A DNA stretch of 64,000 nt from Glutamicibacter ardleyensis (GTDB lineage: Bacteria > Actinomycetota > Actinomycetes > Actinomycetales > Micrococcaceae), in the NCBI RefSeq assembly GCF_014644555.1, contig NZ_BMKX01000011.1, forward strand, positions 1 to 64,000, in the 5' to 3' direction. Below, in pieces: positions 1-30,178 of the stretch (position 1 is the first letter of the stretch; every line of letters starts with the position of its first letter). The notes under the pieces were generated by a model. The model made no database searches, was not told where the DNA came from, and worked only from the letters and a program-made list of their open reading frames with translations. Position numbers and translations under genes: made by a program.

Positions 1-213
1 CAGGCTCGTTTCCCGACGCTGCCGCACATAAGACGGCGGCATGATTTCCGGGACGGTTCATAACGACAGCTTGTTCGAGGTGAGACGTCTTCCAACCTAT
101 GGGTTGCAAGACGTCTCGGCGCGCACCGCTCCTTCAGATTAAAATCCTTGATAACTCAAAGCTAGGACTTTCTCGTAACCATGTGCTGCAACCAATTACG
201 TAAAATCGTTACG
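1..213. other. Left flank of the transposon, no certain gene
   Basis: The first 213 bases lie outside the transposon. A short open stretch runs from base 3 to a TGA at 42-44 on the plus strand and could be the last 13 codons of a gene entering from the left, but it is too short to identify. It is followed by a hairpin at 82-117 (arms GAGACGTCTT and AAGACGTCTC, extended inward by CCAACC/GGGTTG with one mismatch). That hairpin could terminate such a gene, although no clear T-run follows. Nothing else is recognised here. Confidence 0.3.
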
Positions 214-221
214 CCGCTGTC
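214..221. repeat. Target-site duplication, left copy
   Basis: The 8 bases CCGCTGTC directly abut the outer base of the left terminal repeat. They recur exactly at 9224-9231, directly abutting the right terminal repeat. This is what transposition of the 222-9223 element would leave behind. Confidence 0.85.
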
Positions 222-251
222 TGTGACTGTTAGTTTCGTTTGGCGGTTAAT
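222..251 (+). repeat. Left terminal inverted repeat (IRL)
   Basis: The repeat begins TGTGACTGTTAGTTTC, has G at position 17, and continues TTTGGCGGTTAAT. Its inverted partner is at 9194-9223 and differs only at position 17 (A). The outer end starts with TG, as is usual for this transposase class. The tniB stop codon (272-274) lies only about 20 bases inside it. Confidence 0.9.
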
Positions 252-271
252 TGCACCAAGGAATGGCGAGT

Positions 272-1084
272 CTAGGTATACCCGATGACGAGCGTCGAAC
301 GAGCAGCATCGACCACCTCATCTGTGATAGTCGTGAGCTCATTGATCTTCATGACGCGTTCTATTTGAGCGAAGAGCCTGATGATTAACCGGAAATTGCC
401 TCGGGTCACGCGAAGAATGGCCCCGACAGCTTGCGCGTCAGTGAAATCATCCATATTGAGCGTCAGCCCAAGTTTCGTCCACCACCGTTGCAGGACAAAG
501 ACTATTTCTTCTTGCCCAAGCGCTTTGTACTCATGGGCAAACCCAATACGGCTGTAGAGCTGCGGATACCGGCTGAACTGCTTTTCCATCCCGGGCATAC
601 CAATAAGAATCAATGCGACTTGGGTACGGTCATGAAAGTCCCGCAGATACTCCACAGCAACAGCGTTCAGGCGTTCACACTCGTCAACGATAATCAGCTG
701 GACGTTCCCGGGCCGGTCATGGGGCGGTGAACTGCGATTATTCTGATTGATCAAATGTTCATCAACACAGATGCTTAATCTCGTAGATACGACTCGTAGT
801 TCAGATTTGAGCAGCTTCGCTGTGGTCATGACTTGCGGGTTATAGAACACCGCACGTTTCCGATTGCACATCGCATACATCCGTTCATCCTCGTCAGTAC
901 GCGGCCCCCAGTCTTGAAGGAACGGCTCCAACTTGTCCCAACTCGCATAGGCCCGAGCTGAGTTTGTTTTGCCTACGCCAGCTTGGCCAAAGCAAATACC
1001 GATAGTTTTCTGCCGCCTGACCGCGTCCGCGAACTCTATAAAGCGACGGTGTTCTTTGGTCACGATGAGTTTAGAGCTTGCCAT
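272..1084 (-). CDS. tniB: TniB-type transposition ATPase
   Basis: This 270-residue AAA protein should act as the target-selecting ATPase partner of the TniA transposase (known of TniB/TnsC/IstB relatives). The Walker A motif GQAGVGKT is at residues 33-40 and Walker B LIIVDE at about 130-135, followed by sensor-type segments such as LILIGMPGMEKQFSRYPQL. The start codon overlaps the tniA stop codon (TGATG), so the two genes are translationally coupled. The gene ends about 20 bases from the left terminal repeat. It appears intact although its partner tniA carries a nonsense codon. Confidence 0.88.
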   Translation of the reverse strand: MASSKLIVTKEHRRFIEFADAVRRQKTIGICFGQAGVGKTNSARAYASWDKLEPFLQDWGPRTDEDERMYAMCNRKRAVFYNPQVMTTAKLLKSELRVVSTRLSICVDEHLINQNNRSSPPHDRPGNVQLIIVDECERLNAVAVEYLRDFHDRTQVALILIGMPGMEKQFSRYPQLYSRIGFAHEYKALGQEEIVFVLQRWWTKLGLTLNMDDFTDAQAVGAILRVTRGNFRLIIRLFAQIERVMKINELTTITDEVVDAARSTLVIGYT

Positions 1085-2541
1085 CAGCTTCCCTCCTGGT
1101 ACGTGCGCAGCTTCTTCCTAGTTGATGGCGCGGCGCTCGTCATAGGATCTTGTTCCGTATCTGTGTTCACCTGTGTCGGGGATCCGAATGACAGTTTGAG
1201 GTTGATTTGATTCCTTAGTTCTCGCTTTCGAGCATTGCGTGCGGCTTGTATATCTTTGAGCGTCACCGTACTTGATTCATGTTCAGGATCGACCGCTTTA
1301 CAAATAAGAGAGTCTCGGTGAAACACTCGGATTTCCGAAATGTCCCTGGGGTCATAGCGAATGGTGACTTGCTCTCACACATAGGCTGCCAATAAGGGGG
1401 AAATGTAGCGAAGTCCTTGAAAGTGGACTCCATCGCGGTGCACCATTCGTGGTTTGGCCACGGTGAGCAACAGAACGTTCAGAGCGTCAATGGACTCGGG
1501 TAGGCGTGGGAGCCAGCCTTGATTAAGCCAGGCTATTGTAGGAGCCGTTTTCGTTTCCGGGTGTGTTCGTTGGTGATAGGTATCGGTAATGAAAGACCTG
1601 ATCTTGCTGTCTAGTTCATTGAGCGTGAGCTTGGGTGGTGAGGATTGTTTACCGCGGATGATGTGCCCTGGCAGCGTCGGCAGAATTTCAGTATTGAGTG
1701 TTCCGAAGATCCGTTCAATTTTTCCTCGTCCCTGCGGTCTGGCGACCGCTGAGTAAACAATCTCGAAATGCAAATCCTTAGCCGTTTGCGCCAGGTGCAA
1801 GCTGGTGAAATCGGTGCCGTGATCAACGTAGAGCCGATCGGGTATCCCGCACATTGGCCAGGTTTGCTCGTTCTTGGGCCAGATAGCGTCTCGAAGTGCC
1901 AGTGACGTGAAGAATGCAGAGGGTGCACCGAGAAACACCATATAGCCGCATACTGCTCGTGAGTAGTCATCGAGAATTACGGTCAGCCATGGACGGGCCG
2001 GCTTCTGGTTCGCATCAAGTATGAGAATATCCAGCTCGGTGTGATCGGCCTGCCAGACTGAATTCGGTTCCTCGGCCCGGTGCCGCCACACCAGCTCATA
2101 TTTATCCCGGTAAGCCACTGGCCCTTGAAGCGCGAGTGTTCGCAGTGAGGGATCGAGGTTCTGTACGATTGAACGAACACTGCTATAGGAAATACCTGGC
2201 CATCCATTCTTTTTGGCCGCCATGCTGGACTCGCGGTAGATCTGAGCGATGCTTTGTACTGGTGTTTGTAGCGCTGAACGTTCAATAAACGCGACCAGCT
2301 GCGGGTGGATTCTCGATTCCCGGCCAGCCGGCGCAGCAGGCAGTAACCCAGCGATTCCGTCGTTGGCATAGGCATTTTTCCATCGCTGCAAGGTGCGCAG
2401 CCCTACACTGCTTTCATCCGCTAACTCAACGAGGGTTTGCCCACCGTTGATATGCCGGGCAAGGATGTCCCATCGGTTGGCGGCTGTTTCTTCGCGCGCC
2501 TGATGACTCGCTGGTTCAGGCCGTGCACCATTCGAAGGCAT
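1084..2541 (-). pseudogene. tniA: TniA-type DDE transposase, interrupted by an in-frame TGA
   Basis: Read through its stop, this is a 485-codon transposase of the Tn552/Mu class. An N-terminal helix-turn-helix region (about 29-60) precedes a DDE catalytic core with candidate residues Asp166 (QADHTELD), Asp240 (VDHGTDF) and Glu276 (GKIERIFG), and then a Mu-type C-terminal domain. Codon 389 is TGA at 1375-1377. The same frame then continues without break as EQVTIRYDPRDISEIRVFHRD, which is the expected continuation of the family, to the normal stop at 1084-1086. A single change, probably GGA to TGA, explains this. The truncated product keeps the catalytic core but lacks the last 97 residues, so activity is doubtful. 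Confidence 0.85.
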
Positions 2542-2582
2542 GGCTACATTCTGAACCTTGGCACGGTCTGAGGTCGAGGGTT

Positions 2583-3149
2583 TTAGTCTTGGGTTGTTTT
2601 CGACAAAGCACGATAGACGGTGCTTCGACTCACTCCCAGCACTTCACCAATTTGCGCTAGGGTCATTTCCTGCTGCTCATAGAGTTGTCGGGCGGTGCGC
2701 AGCTTATCGGCAGTGAGCAACGCGGGACGGCCTCCGACTTTGCCACGGGCGCGAGCTGCTTGAAGGCCGGCCTTTGTGCGTTCTCTGATCAGATCCCGTT
2801 CGAACTCGGCAAGTGACGCGAAAATGTTGAAGACTAACCGTCCACCGGATGAGCTGGTGTCAATGTTCTCTTGCAACGAACGAAACTCAATACCCCGTTG
2901 CTGCAAAGTATCAAGGTAGTCAATCAGATGCCGGATGGACCGTCCCAAGCGATCGAGCCTCCACACCACCAAGGTATCGCCCGGGCGCAGCTGATCTATC
3001 ACTGCGTCCAGTTCGGGGCGAGACTCAAGTGCACCGGATGCGGTATCGGTGAAAATCCGATAGCACCCAGCAGCAGTAAGCGCGTCGTGCTGCAACCGAG
3101 CGTCTTGATCACCAGTAGACACTCGCGCATATCCAAGAAGATGTCCCAT
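2583..3149 (-). CDS. tniR: TniR-type serine resolvase
   Basis: This 188-residue serine recombinase of the resolvase/invertase family should resolve cointegrates made during replicative transposition by recombining at a nearby res site. The N-terminal motif GYARVSTGDQ contains the nucleophilic serine (Ser11). A typical WRLDRLGRS segment and an LAEFERDLIRERT segment follow, and the C-terminal helix-turn-helix (TLAQIGEVLGVSRSTVYRAL) binds DNA. The start at 3149 (MGHLLGYARVST) matches the family. The frame stays open for 16 more codons upstream, but that stretch is unlike the family. It lies 41 bases upstream of tniA in the same direction. Confidence 0.9.
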   Translation of the reverse strand: MGHLLGYARVSTGDQDARLQHDALTAAGCYRIFTDTASGALESRPELDAVIDQLRPGDTLVVWRLDRLGRSIRHLIDYLDTLQQRGIEFRSLQENIDTSSSGGRLVFNIFASLAEFERDLIRERTKAGLQAARARGKVGGRPALLTADKLRTARQLYEQQEMTLAQIGEVLGVSRSTVYRALSKTTQD

Positions 3150-3164
3150 GCCTTGAAATGTATC

Positions 3165-3260
3165 AAAACTCGTCAAGCATCGATAGAACTGAAACATAGA
3201 TTATGGAACTGAGTTTTGAACCCTTATGCGAGAAGTTGACCCTTGAATTTTCAACTGAAA
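3165..3260. other. Possible res recombination site
   Basis: The AT-richer stretch directly upstream of tniR contains inverted repeats. CAAAACTC at 3173-3180 faces GAGTTTTG at 3211-3218, and AGTTGA near 3234 faces TCAACT near 3251. Serine resolvases of this class act at multi-subsite res sites next to their own gene, so this is the natural candidate. The assignment is positional and has not been matched to a known consensus. Confidence 0.35.
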
Positions 3261-3470
3261 TGGCGTGATGTGATTTCGGCATTTTCAGTGTGTCAAAAAC
3301 GAATGTTTTTGCTCTGCTCTAAAAGAGCTTGCAACAATAGTCATCCGTCAAACCTAATCGAATCACGACATCGTTCCCTGGCAACTCAAAAATGGCCGGC
3401 TTGGACGCAAGCAAGGTGGTCGTCGACCATTTCGATCAGGCCCAGCGTTCTGCATTTACCGATTGGCAAA
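3261..3470. other. Gap inside the transposon with a possible ORF remnant
   Basis: No full gene is recognised between tniR and the first arsR. On the plus strand a frame open from 3341 to a TAG at 3485-3487, with an ATG at 3392 (MAGLDASKVVVDHFDQAQRS and on), has coding-like composition and runs 17 bases into the end of the convergent arsR gene. It may be the broken tail of an earlier cargo gene, or chance. Confidence 0.2.
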
Positions 3471-3833
3471 TTAGCGGTGGTGCTTAGGGATGCGGCCAGC
3501 TGCTTCAACTGCGTGTTCTGCCAGCAGGACCGCTTCGCGGATCACGCGCATTGGGTGGGCATCAACGACGGCATACAACACCTTGGTCCCTTCGGGCCTG
3601 GTCGTCACCATTCGCGCCATCCGCAATCTGGCCAGGTGCTGCGATACGCCTGAAGGGGATTTTCCAACCAGCTTGGCTATTTCGCCTACTGGAAGTTCCC
3701 CCTCGGATTCCAGGGCATCCAGAATCCTAATCCGCGTGGGGTCCGAGAGAATCCCCAGGACCTCTGCGGCAAGCTCTACGAATTCTGGCTCAATCGGGTG
3801 CAACCCATCATTACTGTTCGCGTGCATACGCAT
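3471..3833 (-). CDS. ArsR/SmtB-family metal-responsive repressor (first copy)
   Basis: This winged-helix repressor of about 120 residues (118 if the second ATG at 3827 is used) belongs to the ArsR/SmtB family, whose members leave DNA when they bind metal. The recognition region reads GKSPSGVSQHLARLRMARMV, and the C-terminus ends in a histidine pair (PKHHR). The second ATG aligns with the start of the related regulator at 7425. It is divergent from the DUF418-like gene at 3912 across 78 bases, so it probably controls that gene and the copC and ggt genes behind it. It shares long blocks such as QHLARLRMARM and the segment EFVELxAEVxGILSDPTRI with the 7425 protein. The metal cannot be told from sequence alone. 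Confidence 0.85.
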   Translation of the reverse strand: MRMHANSNDGLHPIEPEFVELAAEVLGILSDPTRIRILDALESEGELPVGEIAKLVGKSPSGVSQHLARLRMARMVTTRPEGTKVLYAVVDAHPMRVIREAVLLAEHAVEAAGRIPKHHR

Positions 3834-3911
3834 ATACTTTCATTTAAGGTGCCTTTTCTCAATGAACCCGCCAAAACCATTCCCAAGCACAAGTGAAGGA
3901 TTCGATGCTGA

Positions 3912-5018
3912 GTGAATCAGCAAGCTCAATACCCTCTATTATCCGTCAACGACAACTCGCCACCCCCACGGCGAATCGCCATCGACGTAGCACGCGCACT
4001 GGCAATTATCGGTATGATCGCCGTCAACGTCGGCCCTCAGCAAGCCGATGACATCATCGGCAAGATCTTCATGCTGCCCTTCGGCCGCGCATCCTTGCTC
4101 TTCATGGTCCTCGCCGGTCTTGGCCTGGGCATTCTCACCCATTCATCTAAAAACCGCTCGAAGCAGGAAATCCGCCTGACCATCATCTGGCGTGCAGCAC
4201 TGCTCTTCCTTGCAGGACTGATCCTGCAGCAAATCAATCACGGGGCCAGCGTCATCCTGACGGTGTACGGACTCCTCTTCCTGTGCATTCTTCCACTCAC
4301 ACAATGGCGCACCCGCACCCTGGCCATCCTCACCGCTGCACTAACTTTCGTAGCGCCCTTGCTCTGGATTACCGTTTTATCGCTCCGTGGCCTGGAATTC
4401 CAGGGCATTCCCATCACGCTCGATGCCAACCCACTGCACGTGATTGACGGAATGATCCTCACCGGCCCCTACCCAGCCATGATCTGGATCGTCCCGATCC
4501 TTGCCGGATTGACGCTTAGCCGACTGAATCTCTCGAACAGGCGGCTTCAGCGAACCATGATGGTTGGCGGCCTGGTGCTCACGGTGGGAAGCCTCGCGGT
4601 ATCAAGAGTTTTGACCGCAGTTACCGGCATAGACCCGACAGATGGCGGGTTTGCCCGGCTTTTGGCCAGTTACGATCATTCCCAGGCCCCGCTGTGGCTC
4701 GTGTCCGGGATCGGTTCAGCCATCGCCCTTTTAGGTTTCTTGCTCCTCATCGAAACTTGGCTGTCTCGCCGCGCTGAGGCCTTGGCAAACCTCGGGCGGC
4801 TGTCGCTCACCATGTATGTCGCCCATTTGATCCTCATCGCGATCTTCGTGCGCCCTGATCCGCACACAACTCCTGAAGGCATTGCCTACGCGCTGCTTAT
4901 TTCGATCTTCTGCATCGTCTGTGCCCACGCGTGGGTGGTAATCCGGGGCCAAGGTCCGCTCGAACGGTTCTTGCGGCCCCCTCTTTTCCTTCGCCGGCTC
5001 ATCGATTCATCCCGATAA
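3912..5018 (+). CDS. DUF418/HGSNAT-like multipass membrane protein
   Basis: This 368-residue integral membrane protein has about ten hydrophobic helices. Its N-terminal block RRIAIDVARALAIIGMIAVN is typical of the DUF1624/HGSNAT-catalytic and DUF418 families. Those families include acyl-transferring membrane enzymes, but most bacterial members have no known role. The last third (LANLGRLSLTMYVAHLIL) has the DUF418 look. The start is GTG, with GAAGGA about 11 bases upstream. It is the first gene of a cargo operon with copC (8 bases downstream) and ggt, facing the arsR gene at 3471-3833. A role in the cell envelope during metal stress is an inference from context. Confidence 0.75.
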   Translation: MNQQAQYPLLSVNDNSPPPRRIAIDVARALAIIGMIAVNVGPQQADDIIGKIFMLPFGRASLLFMVLAGLGLGILTHSSKNRSKQEIRLTIIWRAALLFLAGLILQQINHGASVILTVYGLLFLCILPLTQWRTRTLAILTAALTFVAPLLWITVLSLRGLEFQGIPITLDANPLHVIDGMILTGPYPAMIWIVPILAGLTLSRLNLSNRRLQRTMMVGGLVLTVGSLAVSRVLTAVTGIDPTDGGFARLLASYDHSQAPLWLVSGIGSAIALLGFLLLIETWLSRRAEALANLGRLSLTMYVAHLILIAIFVRPDPHTTPEGIAYALLISIFCIVCAHAWVVIRGQGPLERFLRPPLFLRRLIDSSR

Positions 5019-5026
5019 GGAACCAG

Positions 5027-5683
5027 ATGACACAGCACCAGCGCTTCCCTATGCGTCACTCAAGGCTGCTCGTTGGCTTGTCCGCCGCGCTTGCTCTCGT
5101 GGCCGCCTCCATTTTCCCAGCCTCCCCGGCCTTCGCCCATGAGGGACTGGTATCGGGGACACCTCAACAAGGCTCAACGCTGCAGGGTGCTCCGGCCCAG
5201 ATGAAACTGGAATTCACCGGGCCGCTCCAGGAAATGGAAATCTCAGCATCCAACCAGATCGAGGTGGTCGATGAAAACGGCCAGTCCGTAGTCAAGGGAG
5301 AAACCAAAGTCGACGAACAATACTTGATTGCCGACCTGGAAATCACCACCAACGGCACCTATGCCGTCTCCTGGCGCGCATTGTCGGGGGACGGGCACCC
5401 GGTCGCCAACGAAGGACCCTACACCTTCACGGTCAATGACCCCGCGCTAGAAGCCGCGTCGGCCTCATCAGCGGCACCGACCCCGGAACCCAGCGCCACC
5501 AGCTCGAAAGTTTCTGCAGAAACGGGCGCCGCTGCGCGCATTGAAGCATCCGCCCCCGCCAAGGACCACTCTTTCTGGTCCCCCGGGCTCATCGGCCTGA
5601 CCATCGTGGTACTTCTGGCCGTAGCACTCTCAGCATTTTTCCTGGCTCGCAAGCGCCGCAATACCCAAAATCCAGGGGGCTAA
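5027..5683 (+). CDS. copC: CopC-type copper-binding protein with C-terminal anchor
   Basis: The 218-residue product has a signal peptide ending ASPAFA-HEG. The mature N-terminal His, and the later GDGHPVANEGPYTFTV block, are the hallmarks of the CopC copper-binding beta-sandwich. A Ser/Ala/Pro-rich linker follows, then one C-terminal membrane helix (about 190-210) and a basic tail, so the domain would sit outside the membrane. There is no fused CopD domain. The ATG at 5027 is preceded by AAGGA. The frame is open further upstream, but that would overlap the previous gene and place residues before the signal peptide. CopC proteins carry copper outside the membrane in copper uptake or resistance. 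Confidence 0.85.
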   Translation: MTQHQRFPMRHSRLLVGLSAALALVAASIFPASPAFAHEGLVSGTPQQGSTLQGAPAQMKLEFTGPLQEMEISASNQIEVVDENGQSVVKGETKVDEQYLIADLEITTNGTYAVSWRALSGDGHPVANEGPYTFTVNDPALEAASASSAAPTPEPSATSSKVSAETGAAARIEASAPAKDHSFWSPGLIGLTIVVLLAVALSAFFLARKRRNTQNPGG

Positions 5684-5685
5684 TA

Positions 5686-7356
5686 ATGATCTCGCCAACA
5701 CACACCAACGTCCTGCGCCCCAAGGCGCGGAACTCGAAGGTCCTTGCAACTCTCATAGGTACCGCGCTTCTTATCAGCAGTTGTTCAGCGGTACCAGAAG
5801 AACGCTTGGAAGGATCATCGCCCGTACCTACCCCCCAAACACCACTCAGCCAGATAGGTGTAGCAGCTGGCCATCCCGATGCAGCGGAAATCGGAGTTGA
5901 TGTCCTGGAAGCCGGAGGCAACTCGGTCGATGCCGCCGTCGCCACCGCATTCGCGGTCTCCGTGCTTGAACCCCATGCTTCAGGCATTGGCGGCGGCGGC
6001 GTCAGCCTGGTCGCTGTCCCCGGTGCTAAACCAGCGGCATTCGACTACCGCGAAGTCGTCGCCGAAAACGGGAAAATTCCGGCTTCCGGGACCGGGACCC
6101 CGGGATTTGTTGACGGAATGTGGACCTTGCACCAAAAGTATGGAGAGCTGCCCTGGGAAACGTTGCTAACCCCAGCAGCAGACATTGCACGTCAAGGATT
6201 CAAGATTCCCAAATTCCTCAGTGAACGAATGAATGATGGCGTGGGCTCGCAAGTAGTGTCCCAATACCCGCAATTCCGCAACTCCAAGGGCACCCGCGTC
6301 CTCAAAGAAGGCGAACTCCTGGTCCAAGATGACCTCGCAGATACCATCGAAACACTAGCTGCCTCGGGCCGGGACGCCTTCTATACCGGAAGCATCTCCA
6401 AGAAGCTCACACAAGTTGAAGGCCTGGACTCCAAAACACTTAGTAAATATCGCACGGAAGAATTCACGCCTGTCCAAGGGCAAGTTGGCCAATACACTGT
6501 TGTCAGCGCGCCACCGGCCTTGCCAGGAGCAGGTCTCATCCAAATGCTGCAGCAAGCCGAAGGTGCTGGCATTGCCGAAGACGCCCCTACCTCGGGAGCA
6601 TACGCTGAGAAATTGATGAGGGCCTGGAGCAACGCCAATGAAACGGTGACCACGCAATTTGGCGACCAGCGATTCACGACCGTGGATACCGAAGAAATAC
6701 TCGATCGCCAAGCCAACCTCGATATTGGCAAAAATTTTGAGGAATCCGCCAACACCAAGACCCCTTCAGGGCCAATCGATCCCGGAAACACTACGCATCT
6801 GACGGTGGTCGATGCCCAGGGCATGATGGTTTCGATGACCAACACGATCACCAGCTTCTGGGGAGGGACAAAGAGCGAAGTTGTCGGAGGATTCTTCCTC
6901 AACAACCAGCTCAGCCGCTTCAAAACCGTGGATTCACCCGCGAACCAGCCTGAACCAGGGCGAAAATCAGTCACCTGGTCCAACCCCACCATGGTTCTCG
7001 ATCAGCAAGGCCGCCCCGTGCTGGGCTTGGGGAGCCCTGGAGGCCAGCAAATCCCCAACATCCTCTCGGCGGTCCTGATCCCTGCATTGCTCCACGAAAC
7101 TCCGCTCCAAGAAGCAATCGACGGCCCCCGCTACCACCTCCAGGGGGGCGCCTTGGCCGTGGAGGGATCCGCATCCGCGGACATCCTCAAAGCAGCCAAG
7201 AAGCAGGACTGGAAAATCCGCGAAACAAAACGTGTTGATGGCATTTTCGGATCGGTTCAAGCCCTGCGAATCAACTACGAAGACCGCAGCCTCACCGGAG
7301 CCACCGATTCGCGCCGCGACGGCGGCCACGTCGTACGCGACGCGCCAACCCCATAA
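5686..7356 (+). CDS. ggt: Gamma-glutamyltransferase (glutathione hydrolase family), lipoprotein
   Basis: This 556-residue Ntn-hydrolase is made as one chain that should cleave itself in front of the catalytic threonine, here Thr369 in GNTTHLTVVD. The N-terminal block EAGGNSVDAAVATAFAVSV and the late LGSPGGQQIPN loop are family signatures. The N-terminus carries a lipobox-like LLISSCS, so the enzyme is probably lipid-anchored outside the membrane. It starts two bases after the copC stop codon and closes the operon, with a strong terminator 6 bases past its stop. Actinobacteria generally use mycothiol rather than glutathione, so its substrate here (external gamma-glutamyl peptides, perhaps metal-binding ones) is open. 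Confidence 0.88.
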   Translation: MISPTHTNVLRPKARNSKVLATLIGTALLISSCSAVPEERLEGSSPVPTPQTPLSQIGVAAGHPDAAEIGVDVLEAGGNSVDAAVATAFAVSVLEPHASGIGGGGVSLVAVPGAKPAAFDYREVVAENGKIPASGTGTPGFVDGMWTLHQKYGELPWETLLTPAADIARQGFKIPKFLSERMNDGVGSQVVSQYPQFRNSKGTRVLKEGELLVQDDLADTIETLAASGRDAFYTGSISKKLTQVEGLDSKTLSKYRTEEFTPVQGQVGQYTVVSAPPALPGAGLIQMLQQAEGAGIAEDAPTSGAYAEKLMRAWSNANETVTTQFGDQRFTTVDTEEILDRQANLDIGKNFEESANTKTPSGPIDPGNTTHLTVVDAQGMMVSMTNTITSFWGGTKSEVVGGFFLNNQLSRFKTVDSPANQPEPGRKSVTWSNPTMVLDQQGRPVLGLGSPGGQQIPNILSAVLIPALLHETPLQEAIDGPRYHLQGGALAVEGSASADILKAAKKQDWKIRETKRVDGIFGSVQALRINYEDRSLTGATDSRRDGGHVVRDAPTP

Positions 7357-7361
7357 CCAGG

Positions 7362-7395
7362 CGGCCCCTAGGGACAACTAGGGGCCGTCTTCTTT
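7362..7395 (+). terminator. Intrinsic terminator after ggt
   Basis: A perfect 10-bp stem (CGGCCCCTAG and CTAGGGGCCG) with a 6-base loop is followed by TCTTCTTT. It closes the DUF418-copC-ggt operon. Confidence 0.8.
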
Positions 7396-7440
7396 GCCCT
7401 GCACCTTAATGCTATTATCTACGCATGAATGCATATAAGC
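7394..7440 (+). promoter_or_regulatory. Promoter/operator region of the second arsR, probably leaderless
   Basis: TATTAT at 7413-7418 lies 6 bases before the ATG at 7425, so transcription should start at or near the A of the start codon. The box GCACCTTAA at 7401-7409 recurs (on the opposite strand) in front of the first arsR. AT-rich dyad-like sequence (CATGAATGCATATAAGC) spans the start, as expected for an ArsR operator. Confidence 0.4.
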
Positions 7441-7790
7441 AGATATGCGGCTTAGATCCTTCCTCGGAGTTCGTCGAGCTCTCCGCCGAAGTATTCGGCA
7501 TCCTTTCGGATCCCACCCGCATTAAGATCATCCTGGCTTTGCGCAAGGCTAACGAACTATCCGTCAATGCGCTGGCCGAACTGGTGGAAAAGAAACCCGC
7601 GGCAGTCTCCCAGCATCTCGCCCGCCTGCGCATGGCCCGGATGGCTTCCACCCGCCAAGAGGGCACCAAAGTCCTCTACCGGCTCACCAATGAACACGTC
7701 GTCAATCTTGTCGCCGAAGCAGTCAAACAGGCCGAGCACTCGGTAGCCAACGGACACACCCCGTCACACCACCACCGCGCCCAGGCATAA
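7425..7790 (+). CDS. ArsR/SmtB-family metal-responsive repressor (second copy)
   Basis: This 121-residue ArsR/SmtB winged-helix repressor closely resembles the regulator at 3471-3833, sharing SEFVELSAEVFGILSDP-like and SQHLARLRMARM blocks. The recognition helix region is EKKPAAVSQHLARLRMARM. The C-terminal tail is His-rich (GHTPSHHHR), as in Ni/Co/Zn sensors of the NmtR type, although the sensed metal is not provable here. It is followed 26 bases later by an MFS exporter on the same strand, which it probably controls together with itself. Confidence 0.87.
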   Translation: MNAYKQICGLDPSSEFVELSAEVFGILSDPTRIKIILALRKANELSVNALAELVEKKPAAVSQHLARLRMARMASTRQEGTKVLYRLTNEHVVNLVAEAVKQAEHSVANGHTPSHHHRAQA

Positions 7791-7816
7791 TCCGGTCCTC
7801 ACCTAAGGTTCAAACC

Positions 7817-9055
7817 ATGCTCGCAGTTCTTCGCCACCCGGCCTATGCAAAACTTTTCAGCGCCCAGATCATTGCTCTGGTCGGCACCGGGCTGCTTACC
7901 GTCGCCCTGGGCCTGCTGGCCTTCGACGTCGCCGGGAGCGATGCCGGTGTGGTCCTCGGCTTGGCCATGACCATCAAAATGGTCGCCTATGTCGCAGTGG
8001 CACCTCTCATCAGCGCGCTAGTCGCCCACATCCCTCGCAAACCCCTGCTGATCGGTGCCGACGTGGTTCGCGCCCTGGTCGCGGTGTGCCTGCCATTCGT
8101 GAGCGAAGCCTGGCAAATCTACGTGCTGATTTTCGTGCTGCAATCAGCTTCAGCCACCTTCACCCCAGCATTCCAAGCGATCATCCCCTCCATCCTGCCC
8201 GAGGAACGCGAATATACCCGCGCCCTGTCGCTCTCACGCCTGGCCTACGACATGGAATCACTCATCAGCCCCATGCTCGCCGCCATCCTGCTGACGGTCA
8301 CGAGCTACCACAACTTATTCCTTGGAACCGTCGTAGGATTCGTCAGCTCCGCAGCGCTCGTCGGGCTTACGCACTTTCCCGAGGTTGAGCCTCCAGCCAA
8401 AACCAGGTTCTTCCACCGTCTCACCGCCGGAACCAGGGCTTTTTGGGCGCAGCCCGAATTGCGCAGCCTCATGGCGTTGAACCTTGTGGTGGCCACGACC
8501 ACCGCAATGGTCATCGTGAACACCGTAGTCCTGGTCAAAGGCGAGCTAGGGCGATCGCAATCAGATGTGGCGCTGCTCCTCGGTGCCTACGGGGCCGGGT
8601 CAATGATCGTGGCGCTCAGCGTTCCACCGCTGCTGGATCGATTCCCCGATCGCCGGGTCATGCTCTGCGGCGCAGCTTCCCTTCCCCTGTTGCTGCTGGG
8701 CTCGGCCGCGATAATTCATTGGGGGCAAGGGGCAAGCCAGTGGATCCAGCTCCTGTCCCTGTGGTTGCTGCTTGGCGCGGCCACGGCAACCATTTTGACC
8801 CCCTCTTCCAGGTTGCTTCGCCGCAACAGCACAGAGCAAAATCGGCCAGGAATCTTCGCCGCTCAATTCTCCTTGTCGCATGCGTGCTTCCTGATCACCT
8901 ACCCCTTGGCGGGGACGCTGGGAGCTGCACTCGGATTAACCAGTACTGCCTTGATACTCGTGGGAATCGGTCTGGTCGGCACCGTACTTGCCTTCATCTC
9001 CTGGCGCACACCACGTCCCTCATCTGTGCTGACGGCGTCAGACGAGGCGTCTTGA
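7817..9055 (+). CDS. MFS exporter, probable metal efflux
   Basis: This is a 412-residue major facilitator protein with about 12 hydrophobic helices. An MFS-type loop between helices 2 and 3 reads LVAHIPRKPLLIGADVVRAL. Its overall shape resembles the NreB/enterobactin-exporter side of the family. Co-transcription with a His-tailed ArsR regulator suggests export of a divalent metal such as nickel or cobalt, which is inference from context. It is the last cargo gene before the right end of the transposon. Confidence 0.8.
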   Translation: MLAVLRHPAYAKLFSAQIIALVGTGLLTVALGLLAFDVAGSDAGVVLGLAMTIKMVAYVAVAPLISALVAHIPRKPLLIGADVVRALVAVCLPFVSEAWQIYVLIFVLQSASATFTPAFQAIIPSILPEEREYTRALSLSRLAYDMESLISPMLAAILLTVTSYHNLFLGTVVGFVSSAALVGLTHFPEVEPPAKTRFFHRLTAGTRAFWAQPELRSLMALNLVVATTTAMVIVNTVVLVKGELGRSQSDVALLLGAYGAGSMIVALSVPPLLDRFPDRRVMLCGAASLPLLLLGSAAIIHWGQGASQWIQLLSLWLLLGAATATILTPSSRLLRRNSTEQNRPGIFAAQFSLSHACFLITYPLAGTLGAALGLTSTALILVGIGLVGTVLAFISWRTPRPSSVLTASDEAS

Positions 9056-9143
9056 CAATCCAGGTGCTACGCCGATCTCCTAGCGCCGCAGCACCGTCAG
9101 CATGAGCACGACGGCTAAAGTTCCATTTCGCGTAAGTGCTTGA

Positions 9144-9164
9144 TGTGACTGTTAGCTTCACTGG
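9144..9164 (+). repeat. Extra copy of the transposon end, inside the element
   Basis: TGTGACTGTTAG followed by CTTCACTGG repeats the outer 12 bases of the terminal repeats exactly and most of the next nine. It points rightward, opposite to the true right end at 9194-9223, so the last 80 bases of the element form a head-to-head pair. No duplication flanks this copy. Confidence 0.7.
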
Positions 9165-9193
9165 ACGCACTTATCACCGTCATTCTCACTGTT

Positions 9194-9223
9194 ATTAACC
9201 GCCAAATGAAACTAACAGTCACA
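9194..9223 (-). repeat. Right terminal inverted repeat (IRR)
   Basis: Read from 9223 leftward it is identical to the left repeat except for A at position 17. It is directly followed by the second copy of the CCGCTGTC duplication. Confidence 0.9.
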
Positions 9224-9231
9224 CCGCTGTC
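9224..9231. repeat. Target-site duplication, right copy
   Basis: CCGCTGTC is identical to 214-221. Removing 222-9231 would restore an uninterrupted pre-insertion sequence. Confidence 0.85.
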
Positions 9232-9478
9232 CGTTGCGAGACACATTTAGCCAACACCTCACGCATCAACCATGTTCCCCGCTGCCATGAAGGATTGCTT
9301 AGACATTTCGCCAACGGTTGCTCATCTCGCGGTACTGACTTCTGTGGAAATTCAAGTCGTAATTAATTCACGTACTTCTGGCAGACCCATCCTGCACGCG
9401 CCAGAGCAACTTTCGTTAAATGACCACAAAGGAATCGAACGCGAATAGCCCAGCAAGCGCGGGCTATGAACCAAACGG
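9232..9478. other. Gap between the transposon and moaE with spaced short repeats
   Basis: No gene is seen. ACATTTAGCCAAC at 9243-9255 and ACATTTCGCCAAC at 9303-9315 are direct repeats exactly 60 bases apart, which recalls the repeated protein-binding sites of another mobile element or a resolution site. A hairpin at 9445-9467 (ATAGCCC and GGGCTAT) lies just past the moaE stop codon and may terminate moaE. Confidence 0.4.
9445..9467 (-). terminator. Possible terminator after moaE
   Basis: The stem ATAGCCC/GGGCTAT has a 9-base loop and lies about 12 bases past the moaE stop codon. The T-run is weak. Confidence 0.4.
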
Positions 9479-23983: not shown

Positions 23984-24146
23984 GGTTGATCCTTTCGCTT
24001 ACTTGGGTTCAGCCTACTGCTGGCGCTTCGAGGCGAACTCAAATTCACTGAGAATAACGTACTAAGAAAATGTCAGCTAGCCGTATGGTTACCTCGTCGT
24101 GTTACAGCAAAAGGCACTCGTCAAAACCCTGGTTTACAGTAGAGTC

Positions 24147-24896
24147 ATGGCCAATTCGCCCAGCGGGGATTCAATGCTGGATCGCTTAGTGCGGATCCTG
24201 GATTCATTTGACTCAGAAAATCAGTCACTGAGCGTCATCGCACTGGCCCGCCGGGCAGAAATTCCCAAAGCCACCATGTATCGGCTACTCGATGAGCTGG
24301 TTGGCCATGGTCTGCTGGCGCGGGACAAAGACGGGCAAGTGCGCCTCGGACTGCGGTTGTGGGAGCTGGCCAACCGCAGCACCACCACGCAAGATCTGCG
24401 CAAGACCGCGTTACCTTTTATGGAAGACATCAACCAGCTTCTAGGGCAGAACACGCAGCTATCAATGCTCCACCAAGACGAAGTGCTGATCATTGAACGA
24501 TTGTCCCGTCCTGGCTCCGTAGTCAACCAAGCCAGCGTGGCAGGCCGAATGCCGGTGCACAGCACTTCCATGGGGATGGCACTTCTAGCATTTTCCCGCC
24601 CAGAAGTGATCCGCGAGTTCCTGGACCGCCATCGTGAAATCATGAATTCAACCCACCCGAACTTCCGCGCCGAGATGGCAGAGATCAGACGCAACGGATA
24701 CGCCTCGTTTGACGGGTTCATCGATCCCGAGACCACCGGCGCGGCGGCACCGATCCTGGATAATTCCGGTTACCAAGTTGCCGTGCTTTCGGTGGTAGTT
24801 CCCCGCGATTCAACGTCTCTGCAGCCTGCAGCGATGGCGCTACGCACCGCGGCCCGAGGTATTTCCCGAGCGCTGCTTTTGACTAATACCCCTTAG
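24147..24896 (+). CDS. pobR: IclR-family regulator, probable PobR
   Basis: The 249-residue IclR regulator has an N-terminal winged helix (LSVIALARRAEIPKATMYRLLDELVG) and a C-terminal ligand domain (GRMPVHSTSMGMALLAF, GYASFDGFIDPETTGAAAPI). It lies 298 bases upstream of pobA on the same strand, so it is the natural regulator of 4-hydroxybenzoate hydroxylation. This is context, not proof. The ATG at 24147 was chosen because TACAGT lies 6 bases before it (a leaderless layout) and because upstream codons do not match the family. Confidence 0.75.
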   Translation: MANSPSGDSMLDRLVRILDSFDSENQSLSVIALARRAEIPKATMYRLLDELVGHGLLARDKDGQVRLGLRLWELANRSTTTQDLRKTALPFMEDINQLLGQNTQLSMLHQDEVLIIERLSRPGSVVNQASVAGRMPVHSTSMGMALLAFSRPEVIREFLDRHREIMNSTHPNFRAEMAEIRRNGYASFDGFIDPETTGAAAPILDNSGYQVAVLSVVVPRDSTSLQPAAMALRTAARGISRALLLTNTP

Positions 24897-24984
24897 CGCC
24901 CCTAGCCTCGGCGCCATGCGATGATCGGCCAAGATCGATGACCGTTCACCGAATCACTCAAGGCCGGTGCGCCGATTTTGACTT

Positions 24985-24994
24985 CGGAATTCCG
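24985..24994. promoter_or_regulatory. Short perfect palindrome upstream of pobA
   Basis: CGGAATTCCG lies 200 bases upstream of pobA, between it and the iclR gene. IclR operators are often of this short GGAA/TTCC shape. It may be a second site next to 25135-25158. Confidence 0.35.
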
Positions 24995-25134
24995 GCAGGA
25001 CTGCTCTGGCGTGTAGCACTGAGCCGCGAAGCGTAACCAACCATTCACTTTTCTCATTCATTGAGACTCTTGGTGCCGGCCCGCCGGGTTCCACAGCATT
25101 CTTGAGGAAGTTCCACATCCTCGACCACCAAGGG

Positions 25135-25165
25135 GAATCCGGCAATGCTGCCGAATTCTTATACT
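25135..25165 (+). promoter_or_regulatory. pobA promoter with overlapping palindrome
   Basis: Arms GAATCCGGCA and TGCCGAATTC (9 of 10 matching, 4-base centre, 25135-25158) lie directly in front of a -10-like TATACT at 25160-25165. The ATG follows at 25195. A regulator bound here would sit across the -35 region. The IclR protein at 24147 is the likely ligand-responsive factor. Confidence 0.55.
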
Positions 25166-25194
25166 GCTGGTCCCGCACAGACAGGCAGGATCCC

Positions 25195-26391
25195 ATGGTT
25201 CAGAGTCCACGCATCATCAAGACCAAGGTCGGCATCATCGGTGGCGGCCCCGCAGGCCTGATGCTCTCGCATCTGCTTTCTAAATCCGGCATCGACAACT
25301 TGGTAGTCGAAATGCGCGACCATGAGACAATTCGCAACACCCACCGCGCGGGCATTCTCGAAGCGCAAGCAGTTAAGATGCTCTCCGACTCTGGAGTCAA
25401 CGGGCGAGTACTCACCCACGGAGACGAGCACGCCGGAATCGACCTTCGTTTCAACGGTGAGTCGCATCCGTTGGATTTCCGCGATCTCGTTAACGCCACG
25501 GTCACCTTGTACGCACAGAACGAGGTTTTCGTAGATCTGGCAGCAGCCCGCCAGCGCGACGGTGGCGACGTTCGCTATAACTGCGAAGTCACCGAGATAC
25601 TGGACATGGAAACCTCCACCCCGAAGTTCCGTTTCACCGATGCGCAGGGCACCCTCTTCGAGGTCCATGCAGACGTGATCGTCGGCGCCGACGGCTCACG
25701 TTCATTCGCTCGCCGGCAGATGCCAGACACCGTTCGCAAGGACTTCAAGGTCGCTTACCCATTCGCTTGGTTCGGCATTCTCACCGAAGCTCCAAAGTCT
25801 TCACCGGAATTGATCTACGCAAACTCGCCTCATGGGTTTGCCCTCATCTCCCAACGCAGTGAAACAGTACAGCGTATGTATTTCCAGTGCGACCCGAATG
25901 AAGATGTTAATGCATGGAGTGATGATCAGATCTGGTCAGAACTTCAAAAGCGCGTTGATGGTCCTGATAACTTCCAGCTCAAGACCGGCAAGATCTTTGA
26001 CAAGACCGTATTGGGTTTCCGCTCCTTTGTCCGCGAACCACTCTCCCACGGGCGCATGTTCTTAATTGGCGATGCCGGGCATACCGTGCCACCGACCGGC
26101 GCCAAGGGGTTAAACCTTGCCTTCGCCGATGTGAAAGTGCTCTTCGAAGCACTAGATTCCTTCTTCTCCACGGGCAGCGACAAGCTTCTAGGCGGCTACT
26201 CAGATCTTGCGTTGAAGCGCGTTTGGAAAGCACAGAACTTCTCCTACTGGATGACGTCCATGCTGCACACCCCCGTAAACGCAGACCCATTCATGGCTAA
26301 GCGAGCACTGGGTGAACTGGAAACAGTCACCTCTTCCCGGTATGGCCAGCAGTACTTGGCCGAGTCGTACACCGGCTGGCCACACTCCTAA
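25195..26391 (+). CDS. pobA: 4-hydroxybenzoate 3-monooxygenase
   Basis: The 398-residue FAD enzyme hydroxylates 4-hydroxybenzoate to protocatechuate using NAD(P)H and O2. The FAD motif GIIGGGPAGLMLSHLL is near residue 10, and the substrate-site block YANSPHGFALISQRS is in mid-chain. DAGHTVPPTGAKGLNLAFAD is the second FAD motif. The late RVWKAQNFSYWMTSMLH also matches PobA. The ATG at 25195 gives the usual PobA length. The upstream open frame has no match. It heads the run pobA-pcaH-pcaG-pcaB-pcaD-pcaC. The loop MRDHETIRNTHRAGILE differs from the Pseudomonas enzyme in the region that sets NADPH preference, so NADH use is possible. Confidence 0.93.
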   Translation: MVQSPRIIKTKVGIIGGGPAGLMLSHLLSKSGIDNLVVEMRDHETIRNTHRAGILEAQAVKMLSDSGVNGRVLTHGDEHAGIDLRFNGESHPLDFRDLVNATVTLYAQNEVFVDLAAARQRDGGDVRYNCEVTEILDMETSTPKFRFTDAQGTLFEVHADVIVGADGSRSFARRQMPDTVRKDFKVAYPFAWFGILTEAPKSSPELIYANSPHGFALISQRSETVQRMYFQCDPNEDVNAWSDDQIWSELQKRVDGPDNFQLKTGKIFDKTVLGFRSFVREPLSHGRMFLIGDAGHTVPPTGAKGLNLAFADVKVLFEALDSFFSTGSDKLLGGYSDLALKRVWKAQNFSYWMTSMLHTPVNADPFMAKRALGELETVTSSRYGQQYLAESYTGWPHS

Positions 26392-26435
26392 ATCACAGTC
26401 ATATCAACAACCCTCCATTCCGAAAGGAGCACGTA

Positions 26436-27269
26436 GTGAGCACCGAAACCACCAAGGACGAATCGTTCGAGAATTCGCACGTCCTAGACCCTGCGGCCAC
26501 CGCCGACTCGCAGGAAAAAATCACCGACGAGATCACCAGCATTCACGAGGCTTACCGCCAAGAAGTGGTGTCCGGGAAGAAGGCTGAAACTCAGCCACGC
26601 ATCAACTTTGCCCCGTATCGTTCCTCGCTGCTGCGCCATCCAACGAAGAACCTGCACCATGTGGATCCGGAAACCATTGAGCTGTACTCCCCTGCCTTCG
26701 GTCAGCGCGACGTCCATGCTTTGGAATCGGATCTAACCATTCAGCACAACGGCGAGCCAATTGGTGAGCGCATTGTTGTGGCTGGACGCGTGCTTGATGG
26801 TGACGGTCGCCCGGTGGCCGGCCAGCTGGTGGAAATCTGGCAGGCCAATGCCGCCGGCCGCTACATCCACAAGCGTGACCAGCACCCCGCCCCGATCGAT
26901 CCGAACTTCACCGGTGTGGGGCGCGCAATTACCGGTCCGAACGGCGAATACTCGTTCACGACCATCAAGCCGGCACCGTACCCGTGGAAAAACCACCACA
27001 ATGCGTGGCGCCCGGCGCATATTCACTTCTCGCTGTTCGGCACGGACTTCACCCAGCGGATGATCACCCAGATGTATTTCCCCGGTGACCCGTTGTTCAG
27101 CCTGGACCCGATCTATCAGGCCATCACCGATGCGGATGCACGCGACCGTTTGGTCGCCACCTATGACCACTCGATTACCAGTCATGAATGGGCCACCGGC
27201 TACAACTGGGACATCGTCCTGACCGGTTCAAACCGTACTTGGATGGAAGACGAAGAGGGAGATCACTAA
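26436..27269 (+). CDS. pcaH: Protocatechuate 3,4-dioxygenase beta subunit
   Basis: The 277-residue subunit holds the non-heme iron. The ligand region is seen as GRYIHKRDQHP (Tyr) and PYPWKNHHNAWRPAHIHFS (Tyr, His, His). The enzyme opens the ring of protocatechuate to 3-carboxy-cis,cis-muconate. The start is GTG with AAAGGAG upstream. It has an N-terminal extension of about 45 polar residues. The pcaG start follows immediately after its stop codon. Confidence 0.94.
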   Translation: MSTETTKDESFENSHVLDPAATADSQEKITDEITSIHEAYRQEVVSGKKAETQPRINFAPYRSSLLRHPTKNLHHVDPETIELYSPAFGQRDVHALESDLTIQHNGEPIGERIVVAGRVLDGDGRPVAGQLVEIWQANAAGRYIHKRDQHPAPIDPNFTGVGRAITGPNGEYSFTTIKPAPYPWKNHHNAWRPAHIHFSLFGTDFTQRMITQMYFPGDPLFSLDPIYQAITDADARDRLVATYDHSITSHEWATGYNWDIVLTGSNRTWMEDEEGDH

Positions 27270-27848
27270 ATGTCTCAGGCACCAGAACTCAAACTCGCTC
27301 CCACTCCGGGACAGACCATTGGCCCGTTCTACGGTTACGCTCTGCCGTTTGAAAAAGACAACGAGCTGGTCAATCAGGCCAACCCGAATTCGATACGACT
27401 GCATGGGGTCATCACCGACGGCAAGGGTGAGGTTATCCCGGATGCACTGCTTGAAATTTGGCAGGCAGACGAGAACGGAAACGTGGTTTCCCGCGATGGT
27501 TCGCTAGTCCGTGACGGGTACACCTTCACCGGTTGGGGCCGTACCGCGGTGGACAACGTTGGGCATTACACCTTCACCACGGTGAATCCGGGTGCCACCG
27601 AAGACGGCAAGGCCCCGTTCATCATGCTCACCGTATTTGCCCGTGGGCTGCTGAACCGCCTGTTCACCCGCATTTATTTGCCCGAGGACACCCAAGCTCT
27701 GGCCAATGACCCGTTGTTGTCTTCACTGACTGAAGCACAGCGCAAAACCTTGATTGCTACCCGCGAAGAAGACGGCTCATTACGTTTTGATATTCACTTG
27801 CAGGGCGAGGACGAAACGGTGTTCCTCGCCTACCCACGCGAGAGTTAA
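27270..27848 (+). CDS. pcaG: Protocatechuate 3,4-dioxygenase alpha subunit
   Basis: The 192-residue alpha subunit pairs with PcaH. It shows TPGQTIGPFYGYAL and LLEIWQADENGNV, and the late FARGLLNRLFTRIYLPED, all typical. It follows pcaH directly and is itself followed by a strong hairpin (27863-27921) before pcaB. Confidence 0.93.
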   Translation: MSQAPELKLAPTPGQTIGPFYGYALPFEKDNELVNQANPNSIRLHGVITDGKGEVIPDALLEIWQADENGNVVSRDGSLVRDGYTFTGWGRTAVDNVGHYTFTTVNPGATEDGKAPFIMLTVFARGLLNRLFTRIYLPEDTQALANDPLLSSLTEAQRKTLIATREEDGSLRFDIHLQGEDETVFLAYPRES

Positions 27849-27862
27849 GCACTCGTTACAGG

Positions 27863-27921
27863 CCCCGTGTCAGTGCACCGGCATCCGAAGAAATTCGGTG
27901 CTGGTGCGCCCACGGGGTTTT
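27863..27921 (+). terminator. Terminator-like hairpin between pcaG and pcaB
   Basis: The outer stem is CCCCGTG/CACGGGG, with an inner stem GCACCGGCA/TGCTGGTGC capped by CCGAA/TTCGG, and then TTTT. It would reduce read-through from pobA-pcaHG into pcaBDC. Confidence 0.65.
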
Positions 27922-27976
27922 GCCCGTTGCCGGGCACTAAAGTTTAAAATACAGCCAGCAAAGAATTGAGAGATGG

Positions 27977-29383
27977 ATGAACAGCGTGGATTACGGTGTA
28001 CTCGCTCCAGCTTGGGCCGGAACAAATGCTGCAACCACCGCCAGCGATGTGGCTTTTGTTCAGGCCATGCTAGATGTTGAAGCCGCCTGGGTGAAAGTGC
28101 AAGCCGAGGTGGGGCTGTGCACCACCGAAGAAGCACAGTCCGTTGCCGAGGTCGCCAAGGTCTCCCGCTACGATCTGGTGTCCTTGGCTGCTAAAACACC
28201 GGATGGCGCTAACGCGCTGATCCCACTGTTGGCCATGATGCGCGCACTGCTGGTGGAAGATGGTGCCTCCCCCAAAGCTGGTACTGCGTTACACCGGGGT
28301 GCCACCAGCCAAGACATTATCGATTCAGCACTTATGCTCGTGGTCTCACGAACCTTACAGACCACGCTGGCAGATCTTCGCCAGACCGCTCGAGGCCTAG
28401 CCTCCTTGGCCGCAGATCACCGCGAGACTGTGTGCATTGCGCGCTCGCTGACCCAGCATGCACTGCCTACCACCTTCGGTTGGAAGGCTGCCAGCTGGCT
28501 GTCGGCAGTGCTCAGCGCCGAAGCTGGACTGCAACAGGCAGAGCAGCATCTTGCCCTGCAGTGGGGTGGCGCGGTAGGTACGCTCGCTTCGCTAGAGCAG
28601 CTTCTCGCCACCCATCCTAAAGTAAAGACCACGTCCGCAGAGTTGAGTACCAAGCTCGCAGGCATTCTCGGTCTTGCAGATGTCGGCGCCCCGTGGCATA
28701 CCAACCGCATGCCAATCCTCCAGATTGGTTCGGCGTTGGCAAGTGCCGTGGCAGCTTTAGGCACCTTTGGAGCCGATGTACTCACCGCTTCACGCCCGGA
28801 AATTGCGGAGCTTTCCGAACCACGCGAGGCCGGCAAAGGCGGGTCATCGGCCATGCCGCATAAACAAAACCCGGTGCGTTCACTGTTGCTGCGCAACGCT
28901 GCAATCAGCGCCCCTGGGTTAGTCGCAACCCTGTTCACCGCCGCCGGCACCGCGGTTGATGAACGTCCCGATGGAGGCTGGCACTCCGAATGGCAGGCGC
29001 TACGTGAACTGCTGCGTTTAGCATCCGGAGCCGCTCATCACGGTGGGGCGCTAGCCCTGGGACTGGAAGTTAATGAATCTTCTATGGAGCGCAATCTGCG
29101 CCTGAGCGGCGATGCGATCATGTCCGAACGCGTTACCTCTGTGGCCGCAGGATTCGTCAGCGGAGGCAAAGCCGCCGTTCAAGCGTTAGTTCGACGTTCA
29201 TTGACCGACCAAGTCAGTCTCGGTGAACTACTGCGTTTAGAAATCCCCAGCACCGAGCTATCTGACAAAGAACTCTCCGAATTACTTGATCCAGCCGGAT
29301 ACCTCGGTGCCGCAGATCGTTTCACTACAACCGTTCTCGCCGAATATTCGGCACGGAAGGAAATATGGCAGTCCCACAGCTAA
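27977..29383 (+). CDS. pcaB: 3-carboxy-cis,cis-muconate cycloisomerase
   Basis: This 468-residue member of the fumarase/aspartase superfamily has the signature GKGGSSAMPHKQNPV and the early RGATSQDIIDSAL block. It closes 3-carboxymuconate to gamma-carboxymuconolactone. It sits 128 bases past pcaG, behind a hairpin, and overlaps pcaD by 19 bases. Confidence 0.93.
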   Translation: MNSVDYGVLAPAWAGTNAATTASDVAFVQAMLDVEAAWVKVQAEVGLCTTEEAQSVAEVAKVSRYDLVSLAAKTPDGANALIPLLAMMRALLVEDGASPKAGTALHRGATSQDIIDSALMLVVSRTLQTTLADLRQTARGLASLAADHRETVCIARSLTQHALPTTFGWKAASWLSAVLSAEAGLQQAEQHLALQWGGAVGTLASLEQLLATHPKVKTTSAELSTKLAGILGLADVGAPWHTNRMPILQIGSALASAVAALGTFGADVLTASRPEIAELSEPREAGKGGSSAMPHKQNPVRSLLLRNAAISAPGLVATLFTAAGTAVDERPDGGWHSEWQALRELLRLASGAAHHGGALALGLEVNESSMERNLRLSGDAIMSERVTSVAAGFVSGGKAAVQALVRRSLTDQVSLGELLRLEIPSTELSDKELSELLDPAGYLGAADRFTTTVLAEYSARKEIWQSHS

Positions 29384-30162
29384 CCCCCTCATTGCTACAC
29401 ACCAATAAGGACCTCCCCACGCTCATCGCAGGCCCTTCGCTGGGCACCGCGGCCTTGCCACTTTGGGGGCCAGCCGTTCCGTATCTGAAAGAGCACTTCC
29501 AGGTCGTCGCTTGGGATCTGCCTGGCCACGGTGAAAGCAAGCCTTCCACTCAGGCGTTCTCCTTAGGTGAGCTGGCCTCCGGCGTGATTGCGATGATTGA
29601 TGCTTTACGCGCCGATGGTGTTATCGCCGAAGGCTCCAAACTGTACTACGCCGGCGTTTCAGTAGGTGGCGCTACCGCACTGCAGCTGGTAGTGGACTAC
29701 CCGGGTGTCTTTAACGGCATTTCATCCATCTGCTCTGCAGCGAAGATCGGCACCCCCGAAGGATGGACCGAACGTGCTGAGCTAGTAGCAAAGGCCGGAA
29801 CTCCCACCATGGTTGCTGGTTCCGCCCAGCGCTGGTTCGCCCCCGGATTCATCGAGAAGAACCCGGTGGTCTCCACCGATCTGTTGCACAGCCTGCAGGA
29901 TGCGGATCGTTTCGCCTACGCTCATGCCTGCGGTGCATTGGCCGGATTTGATGTGCGTGAGCAACTGGCGTCGACCACAGACCCGATCCTCGCCATCAAC
30001 GGCGCTCAAGATCAGGTCTGCCCGCCGACCGATGCACAATTCATTGCCGAGCACGCCCCGAAGGGCACTGCGGCAGTCATTGATTCCGCGGCCCACCTTG
30101 CACCTGCTGAAGCCCCCGAAGAGACAGCCGCCTTGCTGGTCGATTTCTTCACCTCCAACTAA
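29365..30162 (+). CDS. pcaD: 3-oxoadipate enol-lactonase
   Basis: The 265-residue alpha/beta hydrolase has its nucleophile in YYAGVSVGGATALQL, an acid in AINGAQDQVCPP and a histidine in DSAAHLAPAEAPEE. It hydrolyses beta-ketoadipate enol-lactone to beta-ketoadipate. In many actinobacteria pcaD is fused to pcaC as pcaL. Here it is separate. Its start lies inside the end of pcaB. Confidence 0.92.
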   Translation: MAVPQLTPSLLHTNKDLPTLIAGPSLGTAALPLWGPAVPYLKEHFQVVAWDLPGHGESKPSTQAFSLGELASGVIAMIDALRADGVIAEGSKLYYAGVSVGGATALQLVVDYPGVFNGISSICSAAKIGTPEGWTERAELVAKAGTPTMVAGSAQRWFAPGFIEKNPVVSTDLLHSLQDADRFAYAHACGALAGFDVREQLASTTDPILAINGAQDQVCPPTDAQFIAEHAPKGTAAVIDSAAHLAPAEAPEETAALLVDFFTSN

Positions 30163-30178
30163 AGAAGGTCTAAGACTG

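Follow-up and report, generated by a model that had tools for sequence, protein, structure and literature searches.

We analyzed a 64,000-nucleotide stretch of the Glutamicibacter ardleyensis genome (contig NZ_BMKX01000011.1, positions 1 to 64,000; hereafter the window), near the start of which lies a transposon flanked by a target duplication. We consider it likely that this element is a Tn552-like transposon located in a res-like site (res being the recognition site of a serine resolvase), that its cargo arm has been exchanged at the element's own res, and that it carries a metal-stress cargo for which copper is the most likely metal. The two 30-bp inverted repeats that bound the element (222-251 and 9194-9223) are identical at 29 of 30 positions, and an exact 8-bp direct repeat, CCGCTGTC, is found outside both of them. 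The positions were recomputed, and the probability that 8 bp agree by chance at two given positions is 1.5e-5. Between the ends, the order is end-ATPase-transposase-resolvase-res-cargo-end. An earlier sequence-only reading of this DNA had reported the same ends, direct repeat and gene list, all of which we could verify. It had also called the transposon complete, which holds for its structure but not for its transposase gene, where an in-frame stop codon had been missed.

Transposition genes and class of the element

The tniA-like frame comprises 485 codons and is interrupted once, by a TGA codon at positions 1375-1377. The pieces on either side of this codon share 86.5% and 90.6% identity with a single uninterrupted 500-amino-acid relative on the plasmid pQL1. 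The stop truncates the Mu-transpos_C domain, of which positions 2-33 of 61 remain, compared with 2-60 in the relative. The window copy is thus probably not autonomous, as judged from its reading frame, and would need a helper to move; intact tniA copies are present elsewhere. The same genome contains a second tni module (L051, G000:C1:467305-469228), which is ~60% identical and has its transposase split into two frames.

The TniA-like protein carries rve and Mu-transpos_C domains. Its partner ATPase matches AAA_22 only, with no match to the TniB family, and shares 42.9% identity with AAA ATPases of Staphylococcus plasmids, which appear to belong to copies of Tn552. The tni module holds tniB, tniA and tniR and no further gene, and no tniQ gene was found between the ends. 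In Tn552, two transposition genes (p271 and p480) are likewise accompanied by a resolvase gene (bin), and res sites are insertion hotspots (PMC3276174, excerpt). Protein sizes also agree, with a transposase of ~480 and an ATPase of ~271 amino acids in the Tn552 type and a 485-codon frame and 270 amino acids in the window. The element differs from Tn552 in its clear inverted repeat of 30 bp rather than ~120 bp, and in its 8-bp duplication, compared with repeats of 6 bp for Tn552 and of 10 bp in the sin res (PMC3276174, excerpt). It also carries metal-type cargo instead of bla genes. Where Tn552-like ends have arrays of ~20-bp transposase sites, the family of the window element shows TGGCG at two offsets, which are putative sites. 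All 10 left ends compared have this motif at offsets 19 and 41-43, as does one of the three right ends; in the remaining two, including that of the window, the second motif is a variant.

The alternative is that the element belongs to the Tn402/Tn5053 group, whose members carry mercury operons and class 1 integrons. With this group it shares a DDE transposase of the rve and Mu-transpos_C type, an ATPase, a resolvase and the res-like insertion site. Tn5053 elements, however, are described as 'res site hunters' with TniABQ and 5-bp repeats (PMC7765201, excerpt), and the window element has neither TniQ nor 5-bp repeats. Its ATPase, moreover, matches AAA_22 only. We therefore rejected membership in the Tn402/Tn5053 group, which we regard as improbable. 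The element fits better as Tn552-like, an assignment that draws on gene content, domain matches and duplication length. Of the 'Tn552/Tn402 group' proposed in the sequence-only reading, only the first half is retained. 'Tn552 transposase' appears as a family name in a Clavibacter figure legend (PMC5358740, excerpt), and Tn3-family transposons and insertion sequences are those listed for Arthrobacter plasmids (PMC6305408, excerpt).

A res-like insertion site and a wider family of elements

When the two flanks are joined, a target stretch of ~150 bp is obtained that recurs in other loci. We examined the 17 other copies that reach 99 bp or more and excluded six shorter matches (at most 65 bp) in the same loci. 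In 12 of the 17, an intact serine resolvase gene begins 9-15 bp after the stretch, and these resolvases share 92.7-100% identity with the pQL1 query, which is counted among the 12. Three further copies (L077, L080 and L081) precede a decayed resolvase, and no resolvase was found at the remaining two (L076 and L069, the latter being the moaE locus of the related genome G011). The stretch contains a dyad and repeated GTTGCRAGAC-like half-sites, as expected for a res site, and the element is inserted one base before the last half-site, adjoining moaE. The insertion site is thus a predicted, res-like recognition site of a different serine resolvase, which the element has split.

A search with the joined flanks as an empty-site query matched all 18 genus genomes somewhere, many of them at moaE only. 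In G011, a one-piece match runs across the junction (query bases 86-588, 71% identity, alignment checked) and lies beside moaE, which supports insertion. The empty site predicted by the sequence-only reading is therefore present in one relative, at moderate identity.

We next asked how far these features extend to related elements. A TniB match was found in 52 of the 197 genomes of the family (Micrococcaceae), and we examined 28 loci (20 fetched and 8 already available, the window included), some of which represent one and the same element. Target duplications of 6-9 bp are present in 13 of these loci (6 bp in one, 7 bp in two, 8 bp in seven and 9 bp in three), as obtained with an end-finding score that favors duplications; the ends of L160 and L170 rest on weaker matches. 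A resolvase gene starting within 350 bp outside an end and reading outward was found for five of 20 two-ended elements (L159, L164, L167, L170 and L171) and for two of five elements with only a left end (L157 and L169). For the two-ended elements, 0.12 such cases would be expected from the further flanks (Poisson 2e-7, or 6e-6 when resolvases of either direction are counted). Resolvase pieces without an N terminus lie directly outside the right ends of L166 and L173 and were excluded from the count. By eye, L009 and L066 show dyads resembling the subsite of tniR beyond their ends.

Several observations weigh against this picture. The window has no resolvase gene next to the split site; the same genome holds a target copy with its resolvase at C13:35656, and this cognate resolvase could act in trans. 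Seven of the 28 loci are two-ended without a duplication, and in eight no right end could be placed. Finally, for 13 of the 20 two-ended elements neither an outward resolvase start nor the res-like stretch was scored at an end, so that res sites are at best a preferred target. The same 13 elements are what favors the view that the res-like insertion is a coincidence in a family without target preference. We consider this very improbable, given the enrichment of outward resolvase starts at the ends (five observed, 0.12 expected), the split site of the window itself and the right end of L052, which is ~15 bp away from the palindrome also present in the window. Insertion into res sites is already known for Tn552 and Tn5053; here it is seen in a Tn552-like family of Micrococcaceae with mostly 8-bp duplications. 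By analogy with these two elements, transposase and ATPase would paste the element into res sites, and its own resolvase would then separate cointegrates.

Probable exchange of the cargo arm

Near matches were found in three plasmid records, all from Glutamicibacter. From 222 to 3311, the window is 83-89% identical to the elements on ZM05 and pQL1 (L009 and L010), whose ends are alike, and similarity ends at 3311. In L063, similarity in the tniR region stops at the same position. Just before it lies a dyad that is clear in six of nine aligned sequences, altered in two (L052 and L156) and absent in L157. The cargo beyond 3311 differs: ZM05 and pQL1 carry a winged-helix regulator and a P-type ATPase, and they further differ from the window in that an IS3-like element lies within tni and their ends lack a duplication. 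That resolvases can exchange modules is an established idea, and the end of homology beside the dyad suggests that recombination by the resolvase at the element's own res has probably exchanged the cargo arm, as seems to be the case across this Micrococcaceae family.

On ZM05, a G. nicotianae plasmid, a GGT (gamma-glutamyltransferase) fragment and relatives of ArsR2 and of the MFS transporter flank the cation-ATPase element immediately beyond its right end (L009:11843-14383). The GGT fragment is 76% identical over residues 349-555, and parts of the cargo thus occur near such elements. In the plasmid collection it is the one GGT match above 60%, and no DUF418 match was found there at 1e-25. A contig scan with GGT returned one 27% relative; as the scan requires exact short peptides, it indicates only that no near copy was caught. 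An additional end-like copy (TGTGACTGTTAGCTTC...) in left-end orientation is found at 9144-9167, 57 bp inside the right end, and may be left over from a further copy of the transposon.

Cargo proteins and the GGT-DUF418 pairing

The features of the element and its target are compiled in the table. The CopC domain is recognized by Pfam with 73.6 bits (cut-off 23.3), and the NCBIfam equivalog scores 62.5, below its cut-off of 95. His-38 and Asp-122-x-His-124 align with YcnJ and CopC, at positions that we take to be copper ligands of CopC. GGT scores 307.5 bits in Pfam and 291.7 with TIGR00066, below the cut-off of 357.85, and its Thr-369 aligns with residue 1 of small chains. Both ArsR proteins exceed the cut-off of the metalloregulator-type family. 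They contain no cysteine (ArsR1) and one cysteine (ArsR2), with no cysteine pair or triad, and arsenic was accordingly rejected as the first-choice metal. By eye, three of four NmtR-type ligand positions (D-x-H...H...H/E) are present in ArsR1 and two in ArsR2, and both proteins have His-rich tails. No solved relative was found for the MFS transporter at 1e-3 or for the DUF418 profile at E 1, and a single-sequence AlphaFold model of the DUF418 protein (mean pLDDT 49.6) was too poor for use.

Features of the element and of its target site in the window
Feature	Position	Strand	Basis or remark
Left part of split res site (target)	82-221	+	dyad ~85-118; res-like, predicted
Target duplication, left copy	214-221	+	CCGCTGTC
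Left end, 30-bp inverted repeat	222-251	+	TGGCG at offsets 19 and 42
tniB-like ATPase, 270 aa	272-1084	-	domain match, AAA_22
tniA-like DDE transposase	1084-2541	-	domain matches; in-frame TGA at 1375-1377
Serine resolvase (tniR)	2583-3197	-	domain match; likely start near 3149
Own res region	3150-3311	.	dyad ~3289-3310, where homology to relatives ends
ArsR1, metalloregulator-type ArsR/SmtB repressor	3471-3833	-	without cysteine
DUF418 membrane protein	3912-5018	+	distant likeness to Acyl_transf_3
CopC	5027-5683	+	C-terminal membrane helix (by eye)
GGT	5686-7356	+	lipobox-like start; Thr369 at small-chain start
ArsR2, metalloregulator-type ArsR/SmtB repressor	7425-7790	+	
MFS transporter	7817-9055	+	MFS_1; TIGR00900 below cut-off
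Right end, 30-bp inverted repeat	9194-9223	-	
Target duplication, right copy	9224-9231	+	CCGCTGTC
Right part of split res site	9232-9247	+	half-site GTTGCGAGACAC

The less expected part of our results is the pairing of GGT with DUF418. GGT matches occur in 126 of the 197 genomes, which does not support the earlier view of a GGT as something unusual for this group; the unusual features are the GGT subfamily and the DUF418 gene that accompanies it. We tested 27 loci with a cargo-type GGT (L121-L147, one per genome, 43-64% identical), leaving out L148, where GGT pieces lie beside DUF418, and L149, an ordinary GGT without DUF418. A DUF418 gene adjoins GGT in 24 of the 27 (12 divergent and 12 co-directional). 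In the exceptions, DUF418 is found one gene further (L123; L060), the locus is at a contig end (L137), or DUF418 is missing (L141). For comparison, 16 ordinary GGTs with identities of 25-30%, taken from lower down the list, were inspected with ~3 kb of flanking DNA on either side, and none had DUF418 nearby. One limited literature collection yielded no report of a GGT-DUF418 pair and, for GGT with copC, nothing beyond one title. The pairing amounts to a strong partnership, open to testing, of one subfamily of GGTs with a domain of unknown function.

Two genomes, G215 (L150) and G226 (L152), contain an MFS-ArsR-DUF418-short CopC-like-GGT cluster, with identities to the window of 75% for MFS, 71% for ArsR1 and 63-64% for both DUF418 and GGT. 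The cluster differs from the window in that MFS lies on the opposite side and that the protein between DUF418 and GGT is short and exported, lacks the CopC domain and ends in a CopC-like tail. Element-type ends were not found around it within the stretches fetched, which shows that it is a related cluster outside such an element. The sequence-only reading had named the same cargo without the ends as a point against itself; these two genomes provide this in part, and the insertion stands, given the empty site in G011. A second copy in G226 (L151) adjoins a multicopper oxidase and a DUF326 protein, a family that presumably stores copper, making copper a better guess than arsenic.

Based on these comparisons, the cargo would form an ArsR-controlled set against extracytoplasmic metal stress, with copper as our best guess: CopC would bind Cu(II), the lipoprotein GGT and DUF418 would act as a pair, and the MFS pump would export. 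The metal-stress island of the sequence-only reading is to this extent a plausible candidate, although ArsR1 has no cysteine. Two further points speak against this reading of the cargo. None of the 27 loci showed a full CopC near GGT, and the neighbors of the cargo genes in other genomes are mixed, with two chromate transporters, a heavy-metal ATPase, DUF305, heme oxygenase, acetate kinase and three further proteins without family assignment. It is conceivable, if rather unlikely, that the cargo does not serve metals, with MFS, GGT and DUF418 handling an antibiotic, a metallophore or a gamma-glutamyl nutrient and CopC a chance addition. The MFS protein also weakly matches drug and siderophore exporters, the metal-ligand set of the ArsR proteins is incomplete, and some chromosomal GGT-DUF418 pairs adjoin heme oxygenase or acetate kinase, all in line with such a role; the two ArsR genes above the metalloregulator-type cut-off, CopC with its likely ligands and the copper genes beside L151 argue for metals. 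A more speculative extension of the copper reading, to which we give little weight, is that GGT, DUF418 and CopC form an undescribed extracytoplasmic copper pathway mobilized in Micrococcaceae by a res-seeking transposon. Here, surface GGT might strip gamma-glutamyl groups from copper-thiol ligands, DUF418, which is distantly like transmembrane acetyltransferases, might modify or move the product, and CopC might hold copper.

The window starts at base 1 of contig C11, in a genome of 3.94 Mb in 28 contigs, and its first 60 bases (1-60) repeat the end of a 4.8-kb contig (L085, G000:C19:1-4765). By eye, that contig has one transposase-like frame and two frames resembling tyrosine recombinases, and Rfam gave no match on it at gathering scores; the contig probably represents a mobile element present in several copies, at which the assembly broke. 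Elsewhere in the window, frames at 24099-30586 resemble, by eye from their translations, a cluster for aromatic (protocatechuate-type) breakdown with an IclR regulator.

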